Made by a program: the position numbers and the translations under genes. From positions 1-40,620 of the forward strand of contig SUTQ01000006.1 of the NCBI GenBank assembly GCA_015062805.1: a stretch of 40,620 nt of DNA. Direction: 5' to 3'. Of the stretch, positions 15,943-25,460 are shown in pieces (positions within the stretch are counted from its first letter, which is position 1; the number at the start of each line of letters is the position of its first letter). The notes under the pieces were generated by a model, which saw nothing but the letters and a program-made list of their open reading frames with translations, was not told the DNA's origin and did not search any database. Origin of the DNA: Methanosphaera stadtmanae (GTDB taxonomy: Archaea > Methanobacteriota > Methanobacteria > Methanobacteriales > Methanobacteriaceae).

Positions 15943-16869
15943 TTAAGATTCAGCTTTGTTAAAAAACGAAGCATTTATTAGATTATTTTTATAGATTACC
16001 GCACTACCCCTTATATTATCATTTTCTAAACGATAATCAACACCCAAACCAACACTATCAAATGTTTCATATTCTAATTCTTTAATTTTGTTAATGAAAA
16101 TATCTTCATTAAATTCTTCTTTTTCATATTCTTCATTTTGTCTACTTATTGCATCAAGTATGTAACTTTCAACAAGTTTATTATGATACTCTTTATATCT
16201 GCTTGAATTGTAAATTATTTCAAAACCCACTAATTTACCGTTTATATAAACAATTAGACCATTCTGTTTGTCATGTAATTTAAAAGCCTTTTTATATTCA
16301 TCAATATCTGAACTTTTTTTATTAAAAGAATCGTGTAATGCACATGTTTGGTTATGCAGTTTAAGATCTTTTTCTGTTTCTGCAATATTCTTCCATACTT
16401 CACTTTGATTAGATTTAAAAGAATTTGAACATCTTAGTGAATTGCTTACGCTATTGAGTTTGTCACGTCTAACACGACTTGTAGCCATATGATTTGAATA
16501 ATGAAATTTAGTACTATTATAATTCCATCGTCCCGACTCTGTACAACTTACTGGAATAACTTTTTCACTTTTAGCAGGAATAATAATTGTAGTATTTACT
16601 ATTCTGTTTTGTTTAGAACCGATAATTTCTTCTCCATCCAGAAGTAATAATGGAGTAACGGCTTTGTTAATTACTTTAACTTCTCCAACAGTTCCATCCT
16701 CATTTACTTCACAAATTTCTACAAGTCCCAAATCCAGACCTATTTCAAGAGACATTAAATCTATAGGATTGTTTTCAGGTATATTAAATCCTACAACTGT
16801 CATATTTTCATAACTTTCTGGCTGAAAGAGATTAATTTGATTTAATACTTCAATTATTACATCAGTCAT
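15943..16869 (-). CDS. ARPP-1-like (DUF6569-type) domain protein
   Basis: About 308 residues. The core has strands NMTVVGFNIPENN, LGLVEICEVNEDGTVGEVKVINKAVTPLLLLDGEEIIGSKQNRIVN and IIIPAKSEKVIPVSCTESGRW, the characteristic blocks I associate with the ARPP-1 domain (named for ADP-ribosylglycohydrolase and rhodanese-phosphatase association). The second half is a charged insertion followed by NGLIVYINGKLVGFEII. The fold may bind a nucleotide or ADP-ribose product, but function is unproven. The ATG at 16869 follows GGTGGGA; an in-frame GTG at 16881 is possible. It begins 15 bases after the stop of the HIRAN gene, so the two form an operon. Confidence 0.7.
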   Translation of the reverse strand: MTDVIIEVLNQINLFQPESYENMTVVGFNIPENNPIDLMSLEIGLDLGLVEICEVNEDGTVGEVKVINKAVTPLLLLDGEEIIGSKQNRIVNTTIIIPAKSEKVIPVSCTESGRWNYNSTKFHYSNHMATSRVRRDKLNSVSNSLRCSNSFKSNQSEVWKNIAETEKDLKLHNQTCALHDSFNKKSSDIDEYKKAFKLHDKQNGLIVYINGKLVGFEIIYNSSRYKEYHNKLVESYILDAISRQNEEYEKEEFNEDIFINKIKELEYETFDSVGLGVDYRLENDNIRGSAVIYKNNLINASFFNKAES

Positions 16870-16884
16870 ATTTAATCCCACCCA

Positions 16885-17238
16885 TTAGATAAAGTTGATA
16901 TCACTATCAGCATCTTCTTTCTCTTTTTCTAATTCATTTTTTGAAAGTATTTTTGCAATAATTATTTCGTGAACTATAAATTCTACTTTTCCATAGTCTA
17001 TATCTAATATCTTATCATATAGACGTCCAGCACTATGTGTTCCTTTGGCTACTGTTTTAACACTATTAGCCACATAGCCTGATGGTCCGGCATATCTTAA
17101 TTCTACTCTTATTGCTTCGCAATCATAATTATTTTCTGGTTCTTTAACTAATTTAATAATAGAACCTATTTTAAATGGTTTTATACCATTAAACATATTA
17201 ACAGCATTGACAGTAAAATACAAATTTTCTTCTTTCAT
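16885..17238 (-). CDS. HIRAN domain protein
   Basis: The 117-residue protein is one HIRAN domain: YFTVNAVNMFNG, then IGSIIKLVKEPENNYDCEAIRVEL with the classic 'L..EP.N.yD..Ai.V' motif, and GPSGYVANSVKTVAKG matching 'iGYv....'. HIRAN domains bind DNA 3' ends or damaged DNA, alone or fused to helicases; here it is solo with a short acidic tail. An AGGTGA ribosome binding site precedes the ATG. It is the first gene of an operon with the ARPP-1-like gene. The upstream region has a palindrome flanked by TATA-like repeats. Confidence 0.8.
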   Translation of the reverse strand: MKEENLYFTVNAVNMFNGIKPFKIGSIIKLVKEPENNYDCEAIRVELRYAGPSGYVANSVKTVAKGTHSAGRLYDKILDIDYGKVEFIVHEIIIAKILSKNELEKEKEDADSDINFI

Positions 17239-18416: not shown

Positions 18417-19601
18417 ATGTCAATTAACAAAATTATAAATGAAGATGAACAGATACTAATTTTTAAATATAATCAGGTATTAAATCGGGTTATATGTCCA
18501 AAATGCAGTAGTGAAATATTATATTTTGATGAATATTGTTATAACTGTGGAACTAAACTAAATAAAACGTCAGTTTTTTACATACCAAATCTTAACAATA
18601 TTAAAAGTAAAGAGGAAGCTTCCACATATAACCTTGCTTTAAAATATGCTAGTGTTACAGTACTTAGACAAATGATGTTTAATCCATTATATTCTGAAAA
18701 AGATGATTTTATTCTACAAGCCTTTAAAAATGTGAGTTTTTATGATGTTCGTAAATACTTGGTTAATGAAGATTTAATAGAAATTTTAACCGGAAGAGAA
18801 AAAATCAAAGCTGGATTGAAAGTAACTTCTGAAGAATACATTGATAAAGTAATTAATCAAAAAGGATTACATCAGGGCATATCAAAAGCTGATAAAATTA
18901 CTATACTAATGAGCAATCTTACAGAAGCAGAACTTGATTCAATGATTCCTCATTATTATAAAGTCACAGAGAATGGTATACAATTTTATGAAAACAACAA
19001 ACATTGCCGATTATATTCACTAGTATTCTATGATTTTAATTTAGAATATTATGATAATGAATATACAACTTCAAAAGCAGAATTGAAAGACTTTGCAATA
19101 AAACTGTTAGATAAATCACTAATTGAAGTTATAGATAAACTTAAATGGCAATCTTATTCAGATTTATTATTCAAATATGCTGAAATATGTGACATATATG
19201 AAGAATATGAAAAAATGTTAAAATATCTTATTAAACACTTCATAACAGAAATAAATCCATATACAGATAATAAAATAAAAAATAAAATTGAAATATCCTT
19301 AAATTTAAGAAATAAAATAATTTACTCAATTACTAAAGCAAATATTGATTATAATAGTTTAATAGAAATAATTAAATCTTCAATAGATAATATTGAAATT
19401 CCAAAAAATTTTGTAAATTGTGATGAGATAATTTTACTAATTGAAGAACTCTTTGATCAAAATACAACTCTCAAAGATATTAATATTCATTTAAATAATT
19501 TATACAATATCGAAAATGTTGATTTAAATAAATATACCTTTAACGATAGAAAAGAACAAGAAAAAGTTTTAAATGAAATAGAAAAAATTATTTCTGTTTA
19601 A
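18417..19601 (+). CDS. Zinc-ribbon/SAP-like helical protein, copy 1 of duplicated module
   Basis: The 394-residue protein has no function I know. An N-terminal zinc ribbon (C27, C30, C41, C44) follows DEQILIFKY. Next is a helical block with the SAP-like LKVTSEEYIDKVINQKGLHQ and ISKADKITILMSNLT. A conserved helical region (about 205-285, KWQSYSDLLFKYAEICDIYEEYEKMLKYLI and INPYTDNK) follows, then a variable C-terminal helical part. The protein at 20667 has the same parts in the same order, so the two are paralogues. SAP-like helices often bind DNA; that is inference. Its stop overlaps by 14 bases the stop of the convergent metalloprotease gene. No clear ribosome binding site beyond AAGGTGC before the ATG. 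Confidence 0.75.
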   Translation: MSINKIINEDEQILIFKYNQVLNRVICPKCSSEILYFDEYCYNCGTKLNKTSVFYIPNLNNIKSKEEASTYNLALKYASVTVLRQMMFNPLYSEKDDFILQAFKNVSFYDVRKYLVNEDLIEILTGREKIKAGLKVTSEEYIDKVINQKGLHQGISKADKITILMSNLTEAELDSMIPHYYKVTENGIQFYENNKHCRLYSLVFYDFNLEYYDNEYTTSKAELKDFAIKLLDKSLIEVIDKLKWQSYSDLLFKYAEICDIYEEYEKMLKYLIKHFITEINPYTDNKIKNKIEISLNLRNKIIYSITKANIDYNSLIEIIKSSIDNIEIPKNFVNCDEIILLIEELFDQNTTLKDINIHLNNLYNIENVDLNKYTFNDRKEQEKVLNEIEKIISV

Positions 19602-20511
19602 ATTCATTTTTCAAGGTTGTTAAATACTTAAAGTAATCCTCCTTATCCAAACAAGCTTTGAAAGCCGAACGTAATAATGCTCCCATATACTCTGTTTTTG
19701 TATTTTCATCCATTTCAGGACTTTCTTCATATTTTATTTGGTCATAGTTTCTTCTAACATTATCTATTGTGTACTGTTGAATAATTTTCCTTCTAAATTC
19801 ATCATCAATGAAATATTCTAAAATGTTTGTAATGTCATTTGAAATTGAACGACCTAATGCTATCAAATCTTTATGTTCATCTATGTTGATTTTATTTTCT
19901 TCCATTATCTGAATGAATGATCCGTAGTTTTGACTTCCATGCAATATAAATTGTCCTTCAGTTGTATGTGCTACATATTCATTCAAAAACTTCCTTTCAG
20001 GGAATATAGTAGAAAAAAGAACAAAAGTTTCTATATAAACATTTTTTTCCACTTTTAGAGCATACATCATCCAACGTTCAAATATTTCAGAAAATAAATG
20101 GTGTGTTAATTCATGAATAAGAGTTGCAATTTGTTCAGCTTCCGGTAATCTTTCATCAATGAAAATCTCATTTGCAACATAATAACCCAATGCACTACCT
20201 TTATGTTTGGAAAAAATATTAACATATTCATCAACTATATCATAGACATTTTCTAAAGTAGACTTGTTTTCATTATAAGTAAATTTATCATATCCTATAC
20301 GTATTATCTCTTCAAGAATTGCATTGTACGCATTAGGACTAAAATATGTTTCAGATAGTGTTTTATAGTTTTCTTCAGTGATTAACTCTTCAAAACTATT
20401 AATTTTATTACCATATACAATTTTTTCAGTTTTTAATGTTGCATTACAACTTTTACAATAGATATTTTCACTATTATTTGCTTTTCCACATTCTGAACAA
20501 TAAACTTTCAT
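19588..20511 (-). CDS. Zinc-ribbon metalloprotease (HELTHH), copy 1 of duplicated module
   Basis: About 307 residues. A zinc ribbon (YCSECGKANNSENIYCKSCN) opens the protein. A helical domain follows, and then the gluzincin-like signature IATLIHELTHHLF (H136, E137, H140 when counted from an upstream GTG at 20520). A likely third ligand is the glutamate in FLNEYVAH some 40 residues later. No membrane segment is seen, so the enzyme should act in the cytoplasm. Its overall layout is shared with the protein at 22555, which lacks the HExxH. The ATG at 20511 is preferred over the GTG. The gene is convergent with 18417 (3' ends overlap) and divergent from 20667 (about 155 bases between starts). The substrate is unknown; the partner protein of the pair is one candidate. 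Confidence 0.8.
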   Translation of the reverse strand: MKVYCSECGKANNSENIYCKSCNATLKTEKIVYGNKINSFEELITEENYKTLSETYFSPNAYNAILEEIIRIGYDKFTYNENKSTLENVYDIVDEYVNIFSKHKGSALGYYVANEIFIDERLPEAEQIATLIHELTHHLFSEIFERWMMYALKVEKNVYIETFVLFSTIFPERKFLNEYVAHTTEGQFILHGSQNYGSFIQIMEENKINIDEHKDLIALGRSISNDITNILEYFIDDEFRRKIIQQYTIDNVRRNYDQIKYEESPEMDENTKTEYMGALLRSAFKACLDKEDYFKYLTTLKNEFKQK

Positions 20512-20666
20512 TATGACCACTAATTAAATATATTAAAATAATAATTAAAAAATGTATTCTTTAAACAATTCTGAATAGAAATAATGTATCTTAAAGTTTT
20601 TCCTATATTTAAAATTAAATATCAATTCATATAGATGTAATAATAACTAATAAAAAACTGATAAAT

Positions 20667-22562
20667 ATGGACAATGAAGTTTTGAGTAAAATAAATAATT
20701 TAACAAATGGAAAATATGCTCAGGAATATTTCAGCAGTTTAGGATTAAATTACTCTGATGCTAAAAAAATTAGGGAAAACCTAATAAATAATCAAAATAA
20801 TGAAGATATCGAAGATTCATTAATTCAATTACAATTATATCTAGAAATATCCAAGTATTGTTATGACAATAAATTAACAGATAACTACGAAAAAGAAATA
20901 ACTAATTCTTATGATGAAAAATTATTGATTTATAAAATAAACGATAACCAATCCCATATTTCTTGTTCAAAATGTAAAAAAGAATTAATTAAAGATTTTA
21001 AATATTGTCCATTTTGTGGTTCCGAAAATATACAGGTTACCTTAAAAATTGTTGTTGATGGAGCTATTGATTTAGATAAAGGTTTTATAACTCCTGAAGA
21101 AGTAAAACACATCAGATATTTAACTCCAAATGAAGAAAAATTAGTAAAAGAAGGAAAAGTTAAATTTGAAGATGTTGGTATAACATTAGATGAAAACAAT
21201 TCCCCATACGAAATAAAAAATCAATTAATATCAAAAAACGAAAATCTTAGAACGAATAAAAATCTTCGAGAAAAATTGTTTAATCAAAACTTGACTATTC
21301 ATAAAAAACAAATTCTCAATTATCAATTAGCATTATTTGACGATTTAAATAAAAATAGGAATTTAAAATATTATCCTCTATCCTTAATTGAACAAAAAGT
21401 GACAGAAATTACTCCTAATGAAACAGAACCCAATAAAGATACTCCATTAGTCAAACCTGAAGAAAAAAGAAAAAAATATATTAAAATAATCTCAAAACCA
21501 GCTAAATCTAAAACAAAAGAAAAAGCTAAAGAAATTAAAGAATATCATGATAGTCAAAAAAATGAAAATCTACAGCCTGTTGATAATCTAAAAATAAATC
21601 TTAAATATGCAGAAGTATTATACCTATTAGATGCAATTAAACATCCTAAAAATCCTGAAATACCAGATAATATGCTTTATTGGTTAAACGTTTCATCAAA
21701 AAGCGAGGTAACTCGTTATTTAAGATGTAATGGGTATATAATGGATTCAAAAGGAATGGATTTAATTAAGGCAAATCTTATGGAACTATCAAAAAATGAT
21801 TTAAAAAGGATTATGACAGAAAATAATCTTAAAATCAAGAATAATAAAGAAGACAATGTTCAAGCAATATGTGATAATGTTCAACGAAATAAACTTGAAG
21901 AATATAATAAAGATAGTGCTATAATTATAACTAAAAAAGGATATGATTTCATCAAACAAAATCCTCAAGTCGAAATATATTCAAAATATTTATACAACTT
22001 TAACTTGAAAAAATTTGAACAATTCTATCAAGAAAACAAAAATAAATCATTAAAAGATATATCAATAGATTATTTAACAACTATTAGAGATTATTATATT
22101 GAAAAAATGAAATGGAATAAATTTGCTATGACTTTTGAAGCCGAAAGTAGAATATACAAAAGCCAAAAGAATAAAATTATGCAATTACAATCATATATAA
22201 ACTACTTTATATGCATGATAAATCCATGGAAAGATAATAAATTAGAATATGATAATCCAATAATAATAGAAGATAATGAAGAATTAATAAAAACAGTAGA
22301 TCAATCCAAATTATCTTTAAAAGAAATACAGGAATTATTTGTAAAACAGAGCAAAGAAATAAAGTTACCTGGATTGTTCTTATCTCCTGATGATATTTAT
22401 GAATATTTTATTAGAATATACAATAATGAAGATTTAAGAAAGATTAACAAGGAATTAACACATATAATAAATATCAGCTCATTGGAAAGTAATTCATTAG
22501 AATTCTTTTCTAAAAAAGAGGAAAATGAAGTATATTTAAGGGTTAAAAAAAGAATTAATTAG
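20667..22562 (+). CDS. Zinc-ribbon/SAP-like helical protein, copy 2 (enlarged)
   Basis: The 631-residue protein is paralogous to that at 18417 but longer. An extra N-terminal helical segment (about 1-80) precedes DEKLLIYK and the zinc ribbon C100, C103, C114, C117. A unique central part (about 125-310) has VVDGAIDLDKGFITPEEVKHIRYLT and a lysine/glutamate-rich linker. From about 312 it aligns with copy 1: YAEVLYLLDAIKHPKNPEI, SAP-like LSKNDLKRIMTENNLKIKNNKEDNVQAI, KWNKFAMTFEAESRIYKSQK and INPWKDNK. There is no enzyme motif I recognise. It is probably cytoplasmic and nucleic-acid- or protein-binding. Its stop overlaps by eight bases the stop of the convergent gene at 22555, as in copy 1. Confidence 0.75.
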   Translation: MDNEVLSKINNLTNGKYAQEYFSSLGLNYSDAKKIRENLINNQNNEDIEDSLIQLQLYLEISKYCYDNKLTDNYEKEITNSYDEKLLIYKINDNQSHISCSKCKKELIKDFKYCPFCGSENIQVTLKIVVDGAIDLDKGFITPEEVKHIRYLTPNEEKLVKEGKVKFEDVGITLDENNSPYEIKNQLISKNENLRTNKNLREKLFNQNLTIHKKQILNYQLALFDDLNKNRNLKYYPLSLIEQKVTEITPNETEPNKDTPLVKPEEKRKKYIKIISKPAKSKTKEKAKEIKEYHDSQKNENLQPVDNLKINLKYAEVLYLLDAIKHPKNPEIPDNMLYWLNVSSKSEVTRYLRCNGYIMDSKGMDLIKANLMELSKNDLKRIMTENNLKIKNNKEDNVQAICDNVQRNKLEEYNKDSAIIITKKGYDFIKQNPQVEIYSKYLYNFNLKKFEQFYQENKNKSLKDISIDYLTTIRDYYIEKMKWNKFAMTFEAESRIYKSQKNKIMQLQSYINYFICMINPWKDNKLEYDNPIIIEDNEELIKTVDQSKLSLKEIQELFVKQSKEIKLPGLFLSPDDIYEYFIRIYNNEDLRKINKELTHIINISSLESNSLEFFSKKEENEVYLRVKKRIN

Positions 22563-23553
22563 CTTTTTCTAATTCTTCAAATACTTTTTTTATTTCATTT
22601 AATTTTTTTCTAGCTTCTTCATTATTCATAAGATATTTAATAGTTTCAATCATATTATTTTTTAAAGTTAAAATCATTTCTTCAGTTGTCATGACTTTAT
22701 CACATTCAAATCGTCTTATAGCATCAGTAGTATCTTCTTTATCTATTTTAAATTGTTCTGCTAATTCGGTGATAATTTCCCTGTTAAATATTTTTTCAAA
22801 TATCTTAATTATTTCTTGAGCATATGTATTTCCAATATATAATCCTTTTTTAAATTCTTCTTCTTTAAAAATATTACTAAAGTATATTTGTTCAACATCC
22901 TCATAGTTATCATAATCTTTTGGTATAAAATGTGCTTCGACTTTAGAGCTGTAATATTTTTGAACAAAATTTTCAAATGCACAAGAGTAACGACAATAAT
23001 CTATAAAACTTTTAAGGTATACATTGCTTTTTACGTTGAATATATACATAAAAAAAGCTTCCAAGATTTCTAAATGAATATCAATAGCCAAATTTTTGAT
23101 AATTGTAGCAGATTGTAAACTTTTTGAATATGTAGGGTTAATTATTATAGTATTATAATCATATAATCCAAAAGTACCAATTTGATCGTTATTTCTAATT
23201 TTAACGTAATTATTACACAATAACAAAATTTTCTCCAAAATATTTAAATCATCATTTAAATGAGTATTTTCTGATCTTTTAACTATTGAATCTAATAAAT
23301 ATTCATAAAACTTAATTGGAATATCCGTTTCATTTATTCGTTTGATATTATCCTCAGTTAATATTTCTTCAAAATTATTCATCTGTTTACCTGTAATAGT
23401 TGCAAATGAAACAAGAACAGTATTGCAATTACTACAAAACCTATTTAAAGGATAATTTTCTTTACCACATTCCGGACAATATATTAAAAGACTTTTATCA
23501 TTATCAAATGACCATTTTTCATCTTTTTGAATTGTTTTTTCATCACTGCTCAT
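22555..23553 (-). CDS. Zinc-ribbon protease homologue without HExxH, copy 2 of duplicated module
   Basis: The 332-residue protein aligns along its length with that at 19588: zinc ribbon (C26, C29, C40, C43), then FEEILTEDN, then SATIIKNLAIDIHLEILEAFFMYIFNVKSNVYL, which parallels IATLIHELTHHLFSEIFERWMMYALKVEKNVYI. At the catalytic site HELTHH is replaced by KNLAID (153-158), so it cannot bind zinc in the usual way and is probably inactive. A charged C-terminal helix is extended. It may be a regulatory or adaptor homologue of the active copy. Its 3' end overlaps the convergent gene at 20667. Upstream, on the same strand, lie the CPBP and M48 protease genes, with 82 and 91 bases between genes. 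Confidence 0.78.
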   Translation of the reverse strand: MSSDEKTIQKDEKWSFDNDKSLLIYCPECGKENYPLNRFCSNCNTVLVSFATITGKQMNNFEEILTEDNIKRINETDIPIKFYEYLLDSIVKRSENTHLNDDLNILEKILLLCNNYVKIRNNDQIGTFGLYDYNTIIINPTYSKSLQSATIIKNLAIDIHLEILEAFFMYIFNVKSNVYLKSFIDYCRYSCAFENFVQKYYSSKVEAHFIPKDYDNYEDVEQIYFSNIFKEEEFKKGLYIGNTYAQEIIKIFEKIFNREIITELAEQFKIDKEDTTDAIRRFECDKVMTTEEMILTLKNNMIETIKYLMNNEEARKKLNEIKKVFEELEKAN

Positions 23554-23635: not shown

Positions 23636-24331
23636 TTACAAACCTAATAACATTATAATCATTATAAAAGCATCTGTAAATAAATGAGATAAATATGGAA
23701 CTATTAAATTTTTAGTTTTTACATATCCATATAATTCAAATATTGAACCAAAACCTTGTATCAATATTGGTTCTATTAGGTAACCTTGAAAATTATAATG
23801 TAATAATCCAAATGTGGTTAAAACTATTATTGATGCAAATACTAATGAAACATCTTTTCTTTCAGAAAATTGATAGAAAAATCTTAATAAAAACATCAAT
23901 GGAATAAATTTAAGTAATTCTTCACCCATCATAGAAAATATTAATCCCAATACACTTTCCCATGTAACTGATAATAAATCCGTACTAGGACTTGTTAAAC
24001 CAAACAAATCTAATAATTGATACATAATTAATGCATATATAATATAACTTATAAACATTAAAAAAGCTAATTTGAGCTCATTTTTTGTTGGTTTGTTAAA
24101 TAATAAATTTAAATTCCAATTAGAAAAGTATAATAAAGGTATTAACATTATTCCACAAAAAAATATACTTCCCAATATTTCAGAATAATCTGATATCACA
24201 AAATAACATATTAAAGAGATTAAAACTGATAAAAGTAATATAAGCCATCCTATTTTAGAAATATAAGGATTTTTATTGTAATAAGGAAAATCTTTATTGT
24301 TATTTTTGATGTCAATAATATTATTTATCAT
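23636..24331 (-). CDS. CPBP family intramembrane protease-like protein
   Basis: The 231-residue protein has about six to seven membrane segments and the three CPBP (CAAX protease and bacteriocin-processing) motifs: GEELLKF (E137, E138, with K where R is usual), TFGLLHYNF (H178) and SHLFTD (H216, D220). Family members are glutamate-type intramembrane proteases; here the K in place of R leaves activity open. A closely related protein is encoded at 26869 (shared GFGSIFELYGYVKTKNLIVP). It lies between M48 and zinc-ribbon protease-like genes on one strand, a possible operon. Confidence 0.85.
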   Translation of the reverse strand: MINNIIDIKNNNKDFPYYNKNPYISKIGWLILLLSVLISLICYFVISDYSEILGSIFFCGIMLIPLLYFSNWNLNLLFNKPTKNELKLAFLMFISYIIYALIMYQLLDLFGLTSPSTDLLSVTWESVLGLIFSMMGEELLKFIPLMFLLRFFYQFSERKDVSLVFASIIVLTTFGLLHYNFQGYLIEPILIQGFGSIFELYGYVKTKNLIVPYLSHLFTDAFIMIIMLLGL

Positions 24332-24422
24332 ATCATTAATTATTTATTTGATATATTAAATATTTTATATGAAAATTTTTTAAAAATGTAAAAAAAAAAG
24401 AATATGATAATAATATTATCTA

Positions 24423-25247
24423 TTATTGATTTACTTTAGGTGTTTCAGGTAATAAAGGTTTTGAATAGAAATCTTTACCACTTTTTATTTCGTCTAAAGA
24501 ATCTTGCATTACTTTTATTCTTTTAGAATCTGATGGATGTGAAGAGAAGAAATCAACTTCATTACCACTATGAGCAGAGAATTTTTTCCAAAATTCCGGA
24601 ACAATTTCTACGTTGTATCCTGCCAAGTAAGAAATTGTTAAACCCAGTTTATCAGCTTCTAATTCATGATCTCTACCCCATGGCTGTGTTAAAAAGAATT
24701 GTGAACCTGTATTTGCAACATTGATTGCAGCTCTAGCCACATTACCTGCGCCAGCATAGCCTAACATATCTAAAATATAAGTAAAAATCCATGAAATTCT
24801 GGATACTGAATTCTTAGTTTCATGAACACTTGCTTGAGTACGTGAATGATCAAGTAATGCATGTGCTATTTCGTGTCCTAATACAAATGCAAATTCATCT
24901 TCGTTTTGGATCAATTGTAATATACCTGAATAGATAATTATTTTTCCTCCAGGATAACAACAAGCATTAACTATATCACTTTTAACTAGATGCACTTCCC
25001 AATCATAGTAACCATCAACATAATCACTTCTACCAATTTTTTGAAGATAGTCCACAATGGTTCTAATTAAGTTATTCGATACTTGAAGTACTTGTTGACC
25101 TACCTGAGTTTGGTCTAATACCTCATATTTATTTACTTCCTGAGCATAAACTTGATAACATTCTGCAAGGAACCTATCATCATTTACTTTATCATAATGT
25201 TTTTTTCCAGTAAATGGATTTAAAGGATTACGGTCATCTTTTGCCAT
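24423..25247 (-). CDS. M48 family zinc metalloprotease without signal peptide
   Basis: About 274 residues. The M48 marks are clear: RNPLNPFTGKKHYD at the N-terminus, the CYPGGKIIIYSGIL strand pair, the zinc site GHEIAHALLDHSR (H125, E126, H129) and the distal ligand in ELEAD (E195). Substrate-edge segments FSSHPSDSKRI match the family C-terminus. Bacterial relatives of the same layout are secreted or lipoproteins; this one has no signal peptide or strong membrane segment, so it is probably cytoplasmic or peripheral. I start at the ATG at 25247, preceded by GGGATGATG; an upstream ATG at 25256 sits too close to that site. First gene of a likely minus-strand run with the CPBP and zinc-ribbon genes. 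Confidence 0.9.
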   Translation of the reverse strand: MAKDDRNPLNPFTGKKHYDKVNDDRFLAECYQVYAQEVNKYEVLDQTQVGQQVLQVSNNLIRTIVDYLQKIGRSDYVDGYYDWEVHLVKSDIVNACCYPGGKIIIYSGILQLIQNEDEFAFVLGHEIAHALLDHSRTQASVHETKNSVSRISWIFTYILDMLGYAGAGNVARAAINVANTGSQFFLTQPWGRDHELEADKLGLTISYLAGYNVEIVPEFWKKFSAHSGNEVDFFSSHPSDSKRIKVMQDSLDEIKSGKDFYSKPLLPETPKVNQ

Positions 25248-25460
25248 TATCATCATCCCACTTGTTTATCATTATTTATAATATATATCTTATTTTTTTT
25301 TAAAGTTTTCTTTTTAATCATTTAATTTAAGATAAATTGTTGTTTTTTCTAGAACTAACTCTTATAAAAATACATAAAATGAATAATATATTTTATAAAT
25401 ATTTAATATTAAAATGATAAAAATAACTTATATTAAAAAAAAAGATTTGGATGTATTAAT

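Follow-up and report, generated by a model that had tools for sequence, protein, structure and literature searches.

A conserved, usually convergent gene pair of gut methanogens encodes a SAP protein with a possibly FAN1-like fold and a distantly PprI-like zinc-ribbon metallopeptidase, and forms a four-gene array in some Methanosphaera

PprI is a protease activated by single-stranded DNA (ssDNA) that cleaves DdrO (PMC10904395), and in PprI/IrrE-DdrO, as in ImmA-ImmR, an M78-like zinc peptidase with an HExxH motif is encoded beside its DNA-binding partner. SPRTN is a DNA-dependent metalloprotease for DNA-protein crosslinks (PMC5127644) in which, as in Wss1, a zinc-dependent HExxH protease is coupled to DNA binding, and ArdC is a plasmid-borne, ssDNA-binding metalloprotease (PMC7213743). 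FAN1 uses a SAP domain for DNA binding and TPR helices for dimerisation and protein contacts (PMC12078616). Here, we describe a pair of adjoining genes, A and B, found twice in succession in a stretch of 40,620 nucleotides of Methanosphaera stadtmanae DNA (GenBank assembly GCA_015062805.1, contig SUTQ01000006.1, positions 1 to 40,620; hereafter, the window). Protein A resembles, as judged from its model, the front part of FAN1 without the nuclease, and B is a zinc-ribbon HExxH metallopeptidase that is distantly like M78/PprI. The pair, whose genes mostly face each other, is conserved among gut methanogens and is previously undescribed, no description of it having been found in the literature searched.

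An earlier note on this DNA had read four genes of alternating orientation (+ - + -) at positions 18417 to 23553, and four intact open reading frames (ORFs) were verified there in that order. They are designated A1, B1, A2 and B2, and their parts are as follows:

18417 to 19601, plus strand: A1, 394 amino acids (aa); zinc ribbon, degenerate SAP and TPR-like helices, without the N-terminal domain (N-domain)
18495 to 18560, plus strand: A1 zinc ribbon, CPKC...CYNCG
18630 to 19598, plus strand: A1 core, SAP-like and TPR-like helices; matches the A-core profile with E=1.5e-74
19588 to 20520, minus strand: B1, 310 aa; zinc-ribbon metallopeptidase with intact active-site motif
20101 to 20115, minus strand: HELTH (HExxH) motif of B1, residues 136-140
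20446 to 20499, minus strand: B1 zinc ribbon, residues 8-25
20521 to 20666, no strand: AT-rich region of 146 bp, shared by B1 and A2, which start on either side of it and diverge
20667 to 22562, plus strand: A2, 631 aa; N-domain, ribbon, linker, SAP-like and TPR-like regions
20667 to 20864, plus strand: helical N-domain (LTxG domain) of A2, widespread in this archaeal family
20964 to 21017, plus strand: A2 zinc ribbon, residues 100-117
21591 to 22559, plus strand: A2 core, the FAN1-like SAP and TPR region in the model
22555 to 23553, minus strand: B2, 332 aa; ribbon protein, predicted pseudo-protease
23083 to 23097, minus strand: degenerate active-site stretch of B2, KNLAI where B1 has HELTH
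23416 to 23481, minus strand: B2 zinc ribbon

The genes overlap at their 3' ends by 14 bp (A1/B1) and 8 bp (A2/B2). Both plus-strand and both minus-strand proteins are paralogous, as had been proposed (A1 and A2, 26% over 325 aa, E=2e-19; B1 and B2, 29% over 251 aa, E=3e-32), and the motifs DE(Q/K)(I/L)LI(F/Y)K and INP(Y/W)xDNK read as given in the earlier note. A CxxC..CxxC ribbon is likewise present in all four; its supposed N-terminal position does not apply to A2, where the ribbon follows an N-domain that A1 lacks.

The pair was surveyed in 151 Methanobacteriales genomes. When whole proteins were used for iterative searching, their shared ribbons drew A, B and further ribbon proteins into one set, and the searches were redone with ribbon-free cores. 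B-type genes were found in 91 of the 151 genomes and the A core in 80, belonging to four of the 19 genera and chiefly to Methanosphaera and Methanobrevibacter; a phylum-wide search for the A core returned no genus beyond those four. Two matches labelled bacterial were not counted as spread of the families: the locus L145 (CAMOWA010000006.1), a 'Bacillales' contig from a metagenome-assembled genome with a Methanosphaera-type B, is probably an archaeal contig placed in the wrong bin, and L156, a single weak match, has an ArdC-like look. Close matches to the A core (tier 1, E<1e-50) occur at 27 places, and a B gene adjoins 26 of them, counting one broken B in genome G083; the exception is a FAN1-like locus in G130 (see below). 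Tier 2, the broader SAP superfamily, is made up of proteins of about 310 aa and of proteins of 612-700 aa with a GNAT-like N-terminus, and none of the 18 tier 2 loci inspected has an adjoining B gene. Thus, pairing with B belongs to one particular A subfamily. Whether the two families usually occur apart, an observation by which the earlier note proposed to be judged, has a divided answer: B is often found without A, whereas a close A is hardly ever found without B.

Stop-to-stop overlaps of 4-30 bp were measured in 16 of 24 convergent pairs; in one pair the genes abut exactly, and in the other seven a gap of 2-27 bp separates them. In G011 and G032 (loci L074 and L076) the two genes form instead a co-directional operon, B followed by A, with a 4-bp overlap or gap; since a convergent pair became co-directional in these genomes, the A-B adjacency has outlived rearrangement. 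Two A genes reduced to N-domain and ribbon still face B. The same partner groups were recovered in the A and B trees. Distances among A proteins track those among B proteins (r=0.69; 2000 random pairings gave at most 0.31) and, once the four-gene arrays are set aside, the true partner assignment scores higher than every within-genome swap (0.80 against at most 0.70). The conserved pairing, the matching tree groups and an adjacency that survives a change in orientation make it likely that A and B share a function, in line with the earlier view that the two families work together. That A and B are co-located for regulation alone, through overlapping 3' ends and antisense transcripts, and serve separate processes would suit the placement of each family within a large lineage-specific expansion of ribbon proteins, and the occurrence of both alone; the adjacency retained at L074 and L076 and the agreement of partner groups in both trees make this explanation unlikely.

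That the pair is patchily distributed, compact in its two-gene layout and quick to diverge could also point to a toxin-antitoxin or antiviral defence module, which was among the suggestions of the earlier note. However, PADLOC models gave no match to the B proteins, and defence-type matches were merely scattered among 138 neighbour proteins (for example, one type IIG restriction gene), with no consistent defence neighbourhood. Relatives of B were absent from the viral contigs and the plasmid collection searched, as were relatives of an A core from the phage collection searched, and both genes exceed the usual size of toxin-antitoxin genes. A module of this kind is therefore very improbable, and this part of the earlier note found no backing.

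In an alignment of 25 A proteins, an N-domain of about 70 residues comes first and is followed by the zinc ribbon; a linker of variable character then leads to a helical stretch, SAP, a short segment with the pattern 'T..G..F' and, lastly, a C-terminal half that is helical. Pfam SAP matches 11 of the 25 members at E<=0.01 (best E=1.1e-12), including the A2 orthologues at L069 (G129, E=5.5e-10) and L070 (G126, E=1.5e-9), and the A-core profile matches the solved SAP domain of THO1 (E=4e-5). Pfam SAP was not detected in A1 or A2 of the window, in the A1 orthologue of G126 or in the truncated A1 fragment of G129; the SAP-like character ascribed to the plus-strand proteins thus holds for the family, and is undetectable in its two members in the window. 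The N-domain was considered as a hallmark of the A-B pair and rejected, as numerous further proteins in these genera carry it. Seven loci (L168, L172, L174, L178, L179, L180 and L184) encode proteins of 612-862 aa in which a GNAT-like N-terminus is joined to the same SAP/TPR core, and most proteins of this set also bear the N-domain and ribbon; the SAP/TPR platform seems to have been reused with another enzyme.

The AlphaFold model of A2 has a pLDDT of 77.6, and its core, from about residue 310, is mostly above 90. When the model was compared to the PDB with Foldseek, the top 14 rows were all FAN1 (probability 0.95-0.98, E from 6e-3), the match spanning about 360-390 columns. By hhalign, the A core aligned with seven bacterial FAN1 proteins at a marginal E=0.015, the helix-SAP region being in register, whereas B, used as a control, gave E=0.79 against FAN1. 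From the model and the Pfam matches, A would share with FAN1 a SAP domain followed by TPR-like helices and a zinc-binding element that precedes SAP. Unlike FAN1, A has no VRR-NUC domain and is encoded beside a protease rather than fused to a nuclease; PF08774 (VRR-NUC) occurs in 10 of the 151 genomes, and none of those ORFs matches the A core. At L165 of G130 (G130:C34, 4019-8382), an A-type protein of 433 aa (A-core E=4e-59), an SseB-domain protein and a VRR-NUC and TPR protein are encoded consecutively on one strand, and the VRR-NUC protein, two genes away from the A-type protein, matches human FAN1 (E=8e-11). This row of genes, from a Methanosphaera genome, has the look of a FAN1 split over several genes and lends independent, though single-locus, support to the link between A and FAN1.

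In an alignment of 24 B proteins, the zinc ribbon is followed by HExxH and by a nearly invariant NEYxAH..E block. HExxH is kept in nearly all members, including B1 (HELTHH); at the aligned positions B2 has K-N-L-A-I, and the conserved Glu181 is replaced by Lys. Of the two B copies in the window, B1 alone has a catalytic site, and B2 is predicted to be a pseudo-protease because the HExxH residues and the downstream Glu are replaced. The minus-strand proteins had both been read as protease homologues; by its residues, B1 fits this description and B2, without zinc ligands, is not a protease. Pfam M78 matches seven of the 24 B members at E<=0.01 (best E=4.4e-4), with B1 at 20.5 bits and below the cut-off of 22, and DUF6782 matches 14 of the 24, with B1 at 23.6 bits against a cut-off of 27. 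The B1 model (pLDDT 90) has Deinococcus PprI/IrrE as its most probable Foldseek matches (0.72, 0.54 and 0.47), yet with E>=0.16 and a TM-score of 0.20, and a sequence search of the PDB with B gave no convincing match. The likeness of B to M78/PprI is accordingly a distant one. With SAP matched by Pfam, a FAN1-like fold of A and an M78/PprI-like B, the reading of the pair as a DNA binder and a protease, made in the earlier note, is upheld.

The described protease systems differ from A-B in several respects. Unlike PprI and ImmA, B bears an N-terminal zinc ribbon, has no detected helix-turn-helix and lies mostly below the M78 cut-off; its partner A is a ribbon-SAP-TPR protein with no Xre match, the genes are usually convergent and, in the array, the second B appears catalytically dead. 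In SPRTN/Wss1 protease and DNA binder are not separate proteins, as they are here, and Pfam does not place B among SprT-like proteins. ArdC also joins a metalloprotease to DNA binding; it is plasmid-borne and has no ribbon, SAP or TPR partner. As tested, the A-B pair is not a member of the ImmA-ImmR, FAN1 or defence families; it would work like a protease/DNA-binder pair.

B also occurs away from A. In 14 Methanobrevibacter loci (L087, L088, L104, L109-L112, L114-L116, L118, L120, L122 and L128), a type II B closes an operon that also encodes a multi-ribbon protein and a RecJ/GAN-like DHH/OB/DnaJ-zinc protein of 753 aa; the B gene adjoins a gene for a 96-aa winged-helix DNA-binding protein, which it faces convergently in 13 of the 14, and RNase P p30 follows nearby. 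Elsewhere, B is found fused to repeats or to TPR segments. A B gene facing that of a DNA-binding protein is therefore a recurrent, though not universal, arrangement. These loci, and the resemblance of an M78-like protease beside a DNA-binding partner to known protease/repressor pairs, favour a scheme in which A regulates or represses transcription and is at the same time the substrate of B, as in ImmR-ImmA and DdrO-PprI, so that upon a signal B would destroy A and genes would be switched on. However, A is not of the Xre type or any other recognised regulator, its solid domains being ribbon, SAP and TPR-like; two A proteins consist of N-domain and ribbon alone; and the partner of A2, B2, has no active site in any of the three species with an array. 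We regard this scheme as rather unlikely.

The four-gene array, A1-B1-A2-B2, was found in three species, represented by the window genome, G129 and G126. The genes that flank the array in G126 differ from those in the window, and the G129 contig carries the array alone; in G126 a gene for a small membrane protein lies between A2 and B2. The zinc ligands are lost from B2 in all three species, and the N-domain is missing from A1 in the window and in G126, A1 of G129 being interrupted by the contig end. In the array, the B that looks intact (B1) and the A that looks intact (A2) thus lie back to back and come from different convergent pairs; the other two members are a reduced A1 and a dead B2. 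The retention of B2 in three species argues for a structural or regulatory role rather than decay. The B2 orthologues (L069, 3712-5439; L070, 10373-11869) have an extra 185-265 aa or so N-terminal to the ribbon, a long, unassigned extension that B2 of the window lacks. At L073 (G130:C39, 3228-3626), near a contig end, a second N-domain protein follows an A-B pair; since it holds the position that A2 has in the window, L073 may be a further four-gene array. Beside the array in the window, on the minus strand at 23636-25256, are genes for a CAAX-type membrane protease (Rce1-like) and an M48 peptidase, which are absent beside the G126 array, and just upstream, at 15943-17238, an ARPP-1 protein adjoins a small stand-alone HIRAN-domain protein.

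The earlier note had explained the array by tandem duplication of a whole convergent pair. In the A tree, A1 and A2 are grouped with a low support of 56/38; in the B tree, B2 groups with single-module B proteins of other Methanosphaera (71/82), and forcing B1 and B2 together gave a p-AU of 0.07. From these trees, a tandem duplication is neither shown nor rejected and, if it took place, it would be older than the split of at least three species. Within the arrays, mirror-tree analysis favours the pairings A1-B2 and A2-B1 (r=0.77 against 0.69). We did not accept this as proof of partner identity, as the preference for the swapped pairing most likely stems from the fast divergence of A1 and B2.

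How might the pair work? Our preferred but tentative reading, to which we give less than an even chance, is that A is a DNA scaffold that places the M78-like protease B on DNA or at lesions, the two forming a DNA-associated proteolysis unit. The SAP domain and FAN1-like SAP-TPR body of A would bind DNA, with flaps, crosslinks and further abnormal structures as possible targets; the N-domain and ribbon of A would recruit or regulate B in a physical complex. On a signal from A, B would cut a DNA-bound protein, which may be a repressor or may have become stuck there; candidate substrates are A itself, a repressor and a crosslinked protein. In the array, B1 would supply the catalytic site and A2 the full N-domain and DNA-binding body, and A1 and the putative pseudo-protease B2 would join that assembly in a structural or regulatory capacity. 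The fuller form of this proposal, a lesion-guided multi-subunit protease built on a FAN1-derived SAP-TPR platform without nuclease and a PprI-like metalloprotease, with four subunits in some Methanosphaera (active protease, pseudo-protease, full and reduced DNA-binding subunit), is more doubtful.

Several observations weigh against a DNA-guided protease. Related A cores (tier 2) are found without B, and B without A. No Foldseek match of the A2 or B1 model reaches E<0.001, TM-scores are low (0.16-0.20), and the profile-profile comparison of A with bacterial FAN1 does not go beyond the E value given above. No SAP is recognisable in the A proteins of L080, L073 and the L084-L102 group, and those of L077 and L135 are reduced to N-domain and ribbon. 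Since several A proteins lack SAP and two retain the N-domain and ribbon alone, DNA binding may not be the essential property common to A proteins.

A more specific role, in which A delivers B to proteins stuck on DNA and B digests them, would make the pair an archaeal counterpart of SPRTN/Wss1 in DNA-protein crosslink repair. A zinc-ribbon metalloprotease with a SAP and FAN1-like partner would suit this role, and Methanosphaera grows on methanol, so that aldehyde damage is plausible. However, B is M78-like and not SprT-like, and the pair is found in merely some genomes of each genus; dedicated crosslink repair is thus improbable.

If the proposal of a DNA-guided protease is true, it would join a FAN1-type DNA platform to PprI-type, damage-activated proteolysis, two themes with no known link. 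The reciprocal loss of parts between neighbouring pairs leads to a sharp prediction, namely that A1, B1, A2 and B2 act as one assembly. The proposal would also bear on major gut methanogens, whose responses to DNA damage are little known.

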